Below are positions 29,922 through 31,966 of a stretch of DNA of 64,000 nucleotides, in pieces; position 1 is the stretch's first letter; each line of letters starts with the position of its first letter. A program made the position numbers and the translations under genes. Below the pieces are notes generated by a model. It was not told the origin of the DNA and searched no databases. It saw only the letters and a list, made by a program, of their open reading frames with translations. The DNA comes from Nocardia sp. BMG111209 (GTDB lineage Bacteria > Actinomycetota > Actinomycetes > Mycobacteriales > Mycobacteriaceae), in contig NZ_KB907309.1 of NCBI RefSeq assembly GCF_000381925.1, positions 620,001-684,000 on the forward strand. Direction: 5' to 3'.

Positions 29922-30353
29922 TTACAGCGAAGCCAGCGTGTTGACCTCACGCGTGAAATGCGCCGACCGCGCGGCCACCGACAAGAGTCCGGCCGCCTTC
30001 AACGCCTGATAGCCGCCGACCAGATCGGTGGATCGATGCAGGCCCAGTTGTTGCAGGGCCGCCGCGGCCAGGCTCGAGGTGTAGCCCTCGGAGCAGACCA
30101 CGATCCATTCCACGTCGTGTCCGGTGGCCAGCGACAGCCGGGCCGAACTCGTCGGATCCAGCCGCCATTCCAGGACATTCCGCTCGATCACCAGCGCACC
30201 CGGCAACGTGCCTTCCTTGACGCGCTGCGCCTGCGGTCGAATATCGACCAGCAGCGCGCCCCGGGCGATCGCCTGCGGCAATTCGAAGGCGTAGATCCGC
30301 TGCAGTTGTGCCCGGGCGTTCTCCAACATGCGATCGATGGTCAAGTGGGTCAT
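29922..30353 (-). CDS. Rhodanese-like sulfurtransferase
   Basis: 143 residues, single rhodanese domain with active-site Cys87 in VVCSEGYTSS and the substrate-side LLVDIRP. The ATG at 30353 overlaps the cysteine dioxygenase stop (ATGA), so the two are coupled; the longer frame to 30764 is a shadow inside that gene. A role in handling sulfane sulfur or sulfite made during cysteine oxidation is inferred from the operon. Not membrane-bound. Confidence 0.88.
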   Translation of the reverse strand: MTHLTIDRMLENARAQLQRIYAFELPQAIARGALLVDIRPQAQRVKEGTLPGALVIERNVLEWRLDPTSSARLSLATGHDVEWIVVCSEGYTSSLAAAALQQLGLHRSTDLVGGYQALKAAGLLSVAARSAHFTREVNTLASL

Positions 30354-30994
30354 TTCACATCGCCTTCGGGCTGATCGGTGAGCACTGTCCGGGTCCGCCG
30401 CAGCGACCCGTGGCCGGTGATCTCGTAATAGGACATGGCTGTCAACGGTGGCGAGTAGGCGTGCACCGACAGGGTCGGTTCCTGCGCCCCACCCGGATCC
30501 GCGAGTAGGCCGGGGGCGCGCACCACATCGTGCACCCACCCCAGCGGAAAAGATGCCTGATCGCCCGCGGACAGCGTCCGTTGCCGCAATTCCCTTCCAT
30601 TCCAACGGAATTCCGACAGCGCGCCGCCGAGCACGGTGAGTGCTCCGAGCGAACCGGCGTGGTCGTGCAATTCGGTGGCCTTGTCGGGCACCCAGCTGAT
30701 CAGCCAGACGTCGACCTCGTCGTCGGTCAGCAGGCGGGTGGCCCATCGATTCGCTGTGGGCCACACCCCACCGGCGGGCAGCAGATGGTCGTATCGGCCG
30801 GCCAGCACATCCTCGGCGCCCTCGTCGGTGAGCCGCAGCAGGTCGGCAGGCCGCAACCGGGTGGGCAGGGCCGAGGCCACCGGTCGTTCGACGACCTCGG
30901 ACGGCAGCGTGCGGGCGCGGACCCCGGGGGTACCGGACACCAACGGCGGTGCGGTCACGGTGACGGAACGAGGGGAAGTGACAGAAGAACGCAT
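30350..30994 (-). CDS. Cysteine dioxygenase
   Basis: 214 residues, cupin fold. The three-histidine iron site appears as His110, His112 (ELHDHAGS) and His155 (GWVHDVV). The enzyme oxidises L-cysteine to cysteine sulfinate; related thiol dioxygenases use 3-mercaptopropionate, which cannot be excluded. GGAG 8 nt before the ATG supports the start. It is preceded by a short ORF with tandem Cys codons and hairpins, which points to cysteine-responsive attenuation. Confidence 0.88.
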   Translation of the reverse strand: MRSSVTSPRSVTVTAPPLVSGTPGVRARTLPSEVVERPVASALPTRLRPADLLRLTDEGAEDVLAGRYDHLLPAGGVWPTANRWATRLLTDDEVDVWLISWVPDKATELHDHAGSLGALTVLGGALSEFRWNGRELRQRTLSAGDQASFPLGWVHDVVRAPGLLADPGGAQEPTLSVHAYSPPLTAMSYYEITGHGSLRRTRTVLTDQPEGDVK

Positions 30995-31024
30995 GAGCGA
31001 ATCTCCAGGAGAAGTGGACGACCG

Positions 31025-31043
31025 GGGGCAGATACGAAGCCCC
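31025..31043 (-). promoter_or_regulatory. Second leader hairpin before cysteine dioxygenase
   Basis: GGGGC...GCCCC, a 5-bp stem with a 9-nt loop (minus strand GGGGCTTCGTATCTGCCCC), between the leader ORF and the dioxygenase ribosome site. Candidate terminator or Shine-Dalgarno-influencing stem of an attenuator. Confidence 0.45.
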
Positions 31044-31052
31044 GACGTCGGC

Positions 31053-31070
31053 CGAGGCGAATCAGCCTCG
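31053..31070 (-). promoter_or_regulatory. Leader hairpin overlapping the Cys codons' stop
   Basis: CGAGGC-TGATTC-GCCTCG, a 6-bp perfect stem whose 5' arm covers the Arg-Gly codons right after Cys-Cys and whose loop holds the leader stop. A ribosome paused at the Cys codons or at the stop would prevent this stem, the geometry expected of an attenuator. Confidence 0.55.
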
Positions 31071-31091
31071 ACAACACTCCTGGGAGATCAT
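31062..31091 (-). CDS. Nine-residue leader peptide MISQECCRG
   Basis: ATG at 31091, stop TGA at 31064-31062, tandem TGT TGT cysteine codons at positions 6-7. It lies 67 nt upstream of the cysteine dioxygenase start and overlaps a hairpin. Actinobacteria are known to use short Cys-rich upstream ORFs to control sulfur genes by ribosome pausing when Cys-tRNA is low. Here the downstream gene consumes cysteine, so the logic may be reversed or based on read-through. Too short for statistical support; context makes it credible. Confidence 0.55.
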   Translation of the reverse strand: MISQECCRG

Positions 31092-31110
31092 GCGCTTGAA
31101 CACGGATGCG

Positions 31111-31116
31111 AGCTTA
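31111..31116 (-). promoter_or_regulatory. Possible -10 element of the cysteine dioxygenase leader
   Basis: TAAGCT (minus strand) fits TANNNT, about 20 nt upstream of the leader ATG, giving a 5' UTR of roughly 13 nt if used. No good -35 is visible. Tentative. Confidence 0.3.
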
Positions 31117-31171
31117 GCAGCATTCCGGCGCGCCGCCGATACCCCTGTGGCGAATCCGACACCGGTGACCG

Positions 31172-31966
31172 TCATCGGCGGCGCTGCTGCTGATTGCGCT
31201 CGTAGACCAGGCGCAGGCCGTCCAGGGTCAGATGCGGCTCGTGATGTTCGATGGTCTCCGATTCGGGCACGATCAGCGGGGCGGCGGCGCCGGTCGCCAC
31301 GACCGCGACATTGTCGCCGGACAGCGCGTCCAGTTCGTCCCGGATGCGATCGATCAGCCCGTCGACCAGGCCGGCGAAACCGAAGATCGCACCGGATTGC
31401 AGGCATTCGGTGCTGTTCTTGCCCAGCACCGACCGCGGCCGGGCCAGCTCCACCCGGCGCAGCGCGGTATTCGACACCAACGCCTCGGTCGCCGTCTCCA
31501 CGCCCGCGGCGATACTGCCGCCGAGGAACTCGCCCTTCGCCGACACCACGTCCACACAGGTCGCGGTGCCGAAATCGACCACGATCGCCGCCGTGTGGAA
31601 CCGCTGATAGGCGGCCAGGCAGTTGACGATCCGGTCCGCGCCGACCTCCTTCGGATTGTCGACCAGCAGCGGAATCCCGGTCCGCACACCGGGTTCCACC
31701 AGCACGTGCGGTACCTCGGCCCAGTATCGACTCAGCATCGTGCGCAGTTCGCGCAGCACCGGCGACACCGTCGACAAGGCGGCGACCCCGACCACCTGGT
31801 CCATCCGCTCGCCGAGCAGCCCGCGCACCTGCATGGCGAATTCGTCGGCGGTGAGCAGTGGGTTGGTGTGCACCCGCCAGGTGCGGGCCAGTTTCGCATG
31901 CGATCCGCTGCCGGTGAAGACGCCGAGGCTGATGCTCGTCGTCCGGACGTCGATGGTCAGCAGCAT
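31172..31966 (-). CDS. coaX: Type III pantothenate kinase
   Basis: 264 residues, ASKHA-fold kinase: N-terminal [17 protein letters not shown] phosphate loop, [10 protein letters not shown] and the [13 protein letters not shown] metal/ATP site. It phosphorylates pantothenate, the first step to CoA, ATP-dependent and not inhibited by CoA in characterised members. It lies 22 bp downstream of panD in the panC-panD-coaX run, as in M. tuberculosis (Rv3600c). An Arg/Gln-rich C-terminus ends the protein. Confidence 0.93.

Follow-up and report, generated by a model that had tools for sequence, protein, structure and literature searches.

Attenuators built on polycysteine sORFs of leaderless transcripts were reportedly described at six mycobacterial loci by Canestrari and colleagues in 2020. 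In the classical, trp-type form of attenuation, the regulatory codons lie in a leader ORF that overlaps hairpins. For the mycobacterial cysteine sORFs, ribosome stalling at the Cys codons is described as freeing the downstream ribosome site (PMC9031893, PMC13236596). The uORFs of cysA2, Rv0485 and nirA are leaderless, conserved and enriched in Cys codons (Shell et al., 2015, PMC4633059), and candidate leader peptides of cys operons in Actinobacteria consist of a short ORF with a run of Cys codons near its stop (PMC1262725). The word 'dioxygenase' does not occur in the main text of Shell et al. (2015), and, judged by title, no publication on a leader peptide for cysteine dioxygenase (CDO) was found in the open-licence literature.

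The locus studied here lies in a stretch of 64,000 nucleotides from Nocardia sp. BMG111209 (contig NZ_KB907309.1, positions 620,001 to 684,000), referred to below as the window. On its minus strand, between coaX (which ends at 31172) and lysS, a CDO gene is followed by an overlapping rhodanese gene (Table 1), and Pfam matches place both in sulfur/cysteine metabolism. The CDO shares its His and Tyr motifs with solved CDOs, and its nearest named relatives are from Nocardia, with a top identity of 93% (among the best 80 of 314 matches). In 143 of 149 loci, CDO and a rhodanese gene are no more than 300 nt apart. At gathering score, no Rfam model matched anywhere in the window.

The region ahead of this CDO resembles the mycobacterial polycysteine attenuators in its adjacent Cys codons, in its place at the head of a sulfur operon and in its predicted sense, which is ON at low cysteine; its promoter geometry suggests a leaderless start as well. 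It differs from them in its sORF, with the peptide QECCRG, in its operon, which is CDO-rhodanese or rhodanese alone, and in a pairing that extends as far as the start codon and shows in compensatory changes. With the trp-type attenuator it has leader-ORF codons and hairpins in common, whereas here there is no U-run terminator and the ribosome site is acted on. With the cysA2, Rv0485 and nirA uORFs it shares conservation and Cys codons, and probably a leaderless start, but the target genes differ; the leaders of PMC1262725 are alike in their Cys run near the stop, and theirs precede cys operons and cbs. As far as sequence can test, the leader appears to be a variant form among the leaderless cysteine-sORF attenuators, which have been described in mycobacteria and would now extend to Nocardia, Rhodococcus and kin. 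It is probable that it acts as a leaderless cysteine-codon translational attenuator of this Nocardia/Rhodococcus-group operon.

Table 1. Features of the leader and its operon (window positions).
Feature	Position	Strand	Details
Cysteine dioxygenase (CDO)	30350..30994	-	PF05995, 40 bits against a cut-off of 23; start ATG 30994-30992
Rhodanese, single-domain	29922..30353	-	PF00581; ATGA overlap with CDO; catalytic-loop Cys present
Putative leaderless sORF VFKRMISQECCRG, 13 codons	31062..31103	-	GTG 31103-31101, TGA 31064-31062; start placed from the promoter
Sensor codons Cys10-Cys11, TGT TGT	31071..31076	-	Invariant in 78/78 sORFs
Extended -10 element TGC-TAAGCT	31111..31119	-	Hexamer 31116-31111, 7 nt 5′ of GTG
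Helix 1, 5′ arm (codons 4-6)	31086..31094	-	Pairs with CDO start codon; pair counts and MFE
Helix 1, 3′ arm	30990..30998	-	Includes CDO start ATG 30994-30992
Helix 2, 5′ arm CCAGGAG (codons 7-9)	31077..31083	-	RNAalifold 5/7 pairs; pair counts
Helix 2, 3′ arm CTCCTGG	31005..31011	-	Overlaps Shine-Dalgarno GGAG 31006-31003
Helix 3, 5′ arm GTCGAGGC (end of Cys11, codons 12-13)	31065..31072	-	Alignment and MFE
Helix 3, 3′ arm GCCTCGGC	31051..31058	-	sORF stop in helix 3 loop
Second GC hairpin	31017..31049	-	Alignment and fold

The leader sORF and its conservation

A first-pass annotation of the window had proposed a 9-codon ORF, MISQECCRG, as a cysteine-codon leader. Its reading frame, the TGT TGT pair and the stop 67 nt before the CDO ATG all stand, but the sORF most likely starts at the in-frame GTG 31103, four codons 5′ of the proposed ATG 31091, which gives 13 codons. 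The TAAGCT box that the annotation had pointed out is also confirmed; the short 5′ UTR attached to it would disappear, the GTG lying 7 nt downstream. TGC-TAAGCT at this distance has the geometry of a leaderless transcript, so that transcription would start at the GTG itself. The alternative start at ATG 31091 is not preferred: the window has no -10-like box at leaderless distance 5′ of it, and the codon in this position is GTG in 51, ATG in 20 and a non-start codon or GTA in 7 of 78 sORFs. A two-box promoter scan, which requires a -35 box, found no promoter. When the window and 80 related loci are taken together, a hexamer of the form NANNNT (a pattern of our own choice) lies 6-7 nt 5′ of an RTG codon in 81/81 sequences, at exactly 7 nt in 77, and is preceded by TGn in 80/81. 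The window contains just one leaderless Cys-Cys sORF on either strand (TANNNT, 6-8 nt, RTG), against a chance expectation of 0.15 per window for both strands (mean of 20 Markov controls, 19 with none and one with 3). Cysteine is mostly encoded by TGC in the 44 GC3-rich ORFs of the window (TGC 98 against TGT 28, from 126 Cys codons).

The related loci were taken from CDO homologs with named loci, 63 from Nocardia and 17 from the Rhodococcus group (Rhodococcus jostii, L075, among them), which are the best 80 of 314 matches and include some species twice. Conservation in relatives had been suggested as a check on the ORF: an sORF ending in ECCRG, with its Cys codons, precedes CDO in 80/80 of these loci, and codons 9-13 are almost invariant. 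One locus, L032, carries an insertion. In 78 of the 81 sequences the sORF start is separated from its first Cys codon by 27 nt, and the codons of these 78 were compared. The DNA of codons 9, 10, 11 and 13 is the same throughout, a single synonymous change occurs at codon 12, and codons 2-3 and 6-7 vary, including in amino acid. Invariant codon DNA next to variable peptide positions points to a constraint on the RNA or the codon.

Beyond this set, a Cys-Cys sORF is kept in 21 of 23 further family loci (L094-L116), which belong mainly to one genus, g2, probably Mycobacterium; L114 has none. In L107 a natural variant is seen 5′ of CDO, with a single Cys codon followed immediately by the stop. Among 43 more distant CDO loci (L117-L159), a Cys-Cys sORF lies near CDO in 8 (L117, L118, L121, L134, L135, L136, L139 and L140); it is missing in 18 of the 26 loci L117-L142 and occurs in 0/17 of the most distant, L143-L159.

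A different peptide pattern, RR..FD..C, recurs 5′ of CDO in 16 loci of other families (L118, L120, L121, L123, L124, L126-L130, L132, L134-L136, L140 and L142), as selected by a regular expression together with choice by eye, and 10 of the 16 have no adjacent Cys codons. These leader ORFs may be based on the nascent peptide. None of four distant sORF peptides gave a Pfam match with E of 1 or less, and the sole NCBIfam match was that of one peptide, at E 0.058.

Pairing of the sORF with the downstream start

Both hairpins listed by the first-pass annotation are real. The CGAGGC/GCCTCG hairpin with the stop in its loop can be extended to 8 bp (helix 3 in Table 1), and the second GC stem is found as described. 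The main structure was absent from that annotation, namely a pairing of sORF codons 4-9 with the start codon and Shine-Dalgarno sequence of CDO (helices 1 and 2). The leader of the window folds with -56.3 kcal/mol (z -5.1), and 0/200 shuffles are as stable. Conservation of the stems had also been proposed as a check. RNAalifold on 76 of the 81 sequences recovers helix 3, together with five of the seven helix 2 pairs; the second-hairpin stretch is missing in 15/17 Rhodococcus-group rows of the alignment. Helix 1, which was named after inspection of single folds, was not predicted by RNAalifold from the same 76 sequences.

The 24 pairs of the three helices were counted directly, in register and slid by 1-3 columns. 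In the first set of sequences 94.7% of cells are paired, against 35.5-44.9% when slid. Double changes number 23, against 5.3 in shuffles (0/500 reach the true value), although this count alone hardly separates the registers, since a slide of -2 gives 20; the gain in pair types over shuffles is weak, being reached by 18/500. A clearer picture comes from a covariance model and its 31 matches from 30 loci outside the model, in an alignment that is fitted to the model, has one antisense row and may overlap in species with the first set. Here 89.1% of cells are paired against 37.3-46.1% when slid, and 15 of the 24 pairs are doubly changed, in 53 cells against 18.4 when shuffled and no more than 17 when slid. 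At both ends of helix 1 the terminal pair is broken in roughly half of the outside rows.

The start codon itself is involved. Where the downstream start codon begins with G, its sORF partner is C in 3/8 rows of the first set and 5/10 of the outside set, and the remaining rows have a U-G wobble in 5 and 4 cases respectively; in one outside row the pair is G-C with the bases swapped relative to the C rows. It is concluded that compensatory changes, most clearly those outside the model set, support the predicted helices between the sORF and the Shine-Dalgarno sequence and start codon of CDO. The proposal of a cysteine-codon leader for this operon is strongly supported, by conservation as well as covariation.

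The extent of this RNA form was examined by comparing closure of the ribosome site with that of shuffled sORFs. In 21/21 sampled Nocardia/Rhodococcus-group sequences at most 5/40 shuffles are as closed. The same holds for four of the 17 loci scored among L094-L116 (L096, L097, L098 and L112), while at least 28/40 shuffles are as closed in seven (L095, L100, L101, L104, L108, L115 and L116); of five distant loci scored, only L134 has 5/40 or fewer. Of 31 loci outside the Nocardia/Rhodococcus group, the RNA model matches 10 with an E cut-off of 1 and 4 with a cut-off of 0.001. Sequestering of the downstream ribosome site by the sORF, as modelled, holds in the Nocardia/Rhodococcus group and is not general in distant relatives; the present RNA form is less widespread than the Cys codons.

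Modelled ribosome positions

A ribosome on the sORF was modelled as a masked footprint during folding; three footprint sizes gave similar results. Averaged over the 81 sequences, opening the ribosome site of the downstream gene costs 16.0 kcal/mol in the free RNA, 9.1 when the A site holds Cys10 or Cys11, and 11.4 with a ribosome at the stop. The window gives 18.8, 9.0-9.5 and 12.7 kcal/mol in the same order, Nocardia 15.7, 9.5 and 11.7 (n=64) and the Rhodococcus group 16.3, 7.5-7.9 and 9.4 (n=17), with five starts mis-set across the two groups. A ribosome at Cys10 opens the site by more than 1 kcal/mol better than one at the stop in 58-61 of the 81, and the order is reversed in 1-2; about a quarter of the sequences lack a clear difference between stalling and termination.

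It is the start codon that responds. Its mean probability of being unpaired rises in Nocardia (n=62) from 0.13 in the free RNA to 0.62 with a ribosome at Cys10, and is 0.24 with a ribosome at the stop; the Rhodococcus-group values (n=17) are 0.10, 0.46 and 0.11. The Shine-Dalgarno sequence does not become more unpaired with a ribosome at Cys, either in Nocardia (0.20-0.22, against 0.22 free) or in the Rhodococcus group (0.19, against 0.26 free); the folds place it mostly in a weak local hairpin, and opening is confined to the start codon. With the A site anywhere from codon 4 to codon 12 the site also opens (averaged over 72 sequences), so initiation on the sORF alone could raise expression.

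The following mechanism is proposed. Transcription would begin at the GTG of the 13-codon sORF. With no ribosome present, the sORF RNA would pair with the ribosome site of the following gene, Shine-Dalgarno sequence and start codon alike, and keep it closed, a structure that covariation supports. When Cys-tRNA is short, the leaderless ribosome would stall at Cys10 or Cys11, with its footprint over codons 4-13; as the Cys codons lie 27 nt from the start, the sealing arm falls within this footprint, and masked-footprint folding predicts that the arms are held apart. The downstream gene would then be translated. With plentiful cysteine the ribosome would finish and depart and the helix would re-form, so that the operon is predicted to be ON at low cysteine.

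The gene behind the leader and the sense of the switch

Of 201 family genomes, 98 give a covariance-model match to the leader at E up to 0.1, one of them two matches and the other 97 a single one. In 150 genomes of the order the model finds it in only 5 at E up to 0.01, all from the present family. From the 99 family matches 40 were fetched, including all the weakest, and the resulting counts are not rates: 25 lie before CDO and rhodanese, in 14 CDO is absent and the gene directly behind the leader is of the rhodanese fold, and one (L201) is false. Five of the 14 match the model strongly (E at or below 8e-9), the other nine weakly (E between 3e-5 and 0.07). In 12 there is a Cys-Cys sORF that begins with RTG, while L188 and L198 have the motif with no RTG near the model start. 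In the CDO-less stretches that were extended, coaX and lysS are direct neighbours in 7/9; in L242 lysS is present and coaX is about 1.9 kb off, and in L243 coaX is again about 1.9 kb off in a stretch without lysS. Five of the 14 genomes have no CDO match, seven have a close match elsewhere (one in a 66% complete assembly) and two have distant matches only. A Cys-Cys sORF was found at none of the six close CDOs fetched (of the seven).

Sealing of the rhodanese start by the sORF is seen in four of the CDO-less loci, L194, L212, L221 and L223 (0-2/30 shuffles as closed), where a ribosome at Cys saves 3.4-18.4 kcal/mol of the opening cost. For L210 the saving is 5.5, but 8/30 shuffles are as closed, and sealing is weak or absent in L188, L190-L193, L195, L198, L199 and L202. 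L194 (321-440) has a variant leader, in which the beginning of the sORF is paired to the start of the rhodanese gene; opening costs 22.3 kcal/mol free and 3.9 with a ribosome at Cys.

The annotation had named CDO plus rhodanese as the controlled genes. CDO appears to be optional, because the same kind of leader directly precedes a rhodanese-fold gene where CDO is absent; rhodanese would be the constant gene of the operon and CDO its optional first gene. The leader outlives the enzyme for which it was named. The rhodanese itself changes as well: its catalytic Cys is present in 168/168 cases beside CDO and in 2/14 without CDO, the other 12 having Ser (the species overlap partly). Ser-for-Cys rhodanese-fold genes without CDO, with the leader or its motif on the 5′ side, are those of L188, L190-L195, L198, L199, L210, L221 and L223. 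In L220 (430-615), as assembled, CDO is reduced to residues 39-61 and 179-214 while leader and rhodanese are intact; this internal deletion possibly represents CDO decay midway.

The prediction of ON at low cysteine conflicts with the textbook role of CDO, which is the disposal of excess cysteine, and the annotation had accordingly supposed that the sense must be inverted, with the operon ON when cysteine is plentiful. Such a switch would fit the textbook role, and the Pfam match and the His and Tyr motifs common to solved CDOs suggest a real thiol dioxygenase. We regard it as unlikely, however, since in the folding models the site is open while the Cys codons are occupied by a ribosome and closed once that ribosome has left, since the leader also precedes a rhodanese-fold gene where there is no CDO to control, and since no terminator was found. 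The search for an intrinsic terminator with a T-run covered 30950-31250, and its empty result makes control of translation initiation more likely than transcription attenuation. The latter, either in its classical form or as Rho-dependent termination coupled to sORF translation, is quite improbable. In Nocardia the helix-3 elements could, as read from the alignment, pair alternatively with the second hairpin, and a role of Rho has been put forward, as a weak prediction, for the cys leaders of mycobacteria (PMC1262725), but that hairpin is the one mostly missing from the Rhodococcus group, and the covarying helices instead seal the ribosome site.

A nascent arrest peptide or a trans-acting small protein, in which amino acids and not codons would matter, seems very improbable for the present leader. 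The recurrence of RR..FD..C ahead of CDO in other families, largely without adjacent Cys codons, speaks for it; the near-invariant DNA of codons 9-13, with one synonymous change in 78 sORFs, and the amino acid variation at codons 2-3 and 6-7 speak against it.

Stall-ON control of a true destroyer of cysteine would be a runaway loop, which argues for an operon engaged in sulfur scavenging or sulfur-carrier supply and not in disposal of excess cysteine. An operon that provides sulfur in cysteine shortage would be the simplest way out of the clash. Tentatively, the dioxygenase of such a starvation-switched operon might mobilise sulfur from other thiols, and the rhodanese-fold protein might be the real client, kept after CDO and the catalytic Cys were lost. 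A low cysteine content of CDO was considered as a sign of adaptation to starvation and set aside: CDO is Cys-free in 29/33 cases without a Cys-Cys leader, compared with 57/62 in Nocardia, and being Cys-poor with or without the leader it gives no support for the sense.

As the RNA-model matches are nearly all single in their genomes, there appears to be one leader per genome and no regulon. The motif CAGGAGTGTTGTCGAGGC, with up to 1 mismatch, occurs in 5/200 genomes of the order, once in each, and the second match in the one genome with two, L201 (E 0.087), has neither CDO nor rhodanese near it in a stretch of 1.5 kb. Around rhodanese and PAPS-reductase genes, 18 loci of the window's own genome contain several further leaderless Cys sORFs besides the present one and L167/L170, and these were taken as chance. 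At L167 (313 onwards, near 450 kb) this genome has another putatively leaderless sORF of the poly-Cys kind, VQTRRELMLTRRRTVDLCRLGGCCCLCR, with TAAACT 7 nt 5′ of its GTG. It lies 5′ of a two-domain rhodanese, and the first long ORF downstream of it encodes a membrane-like protein.
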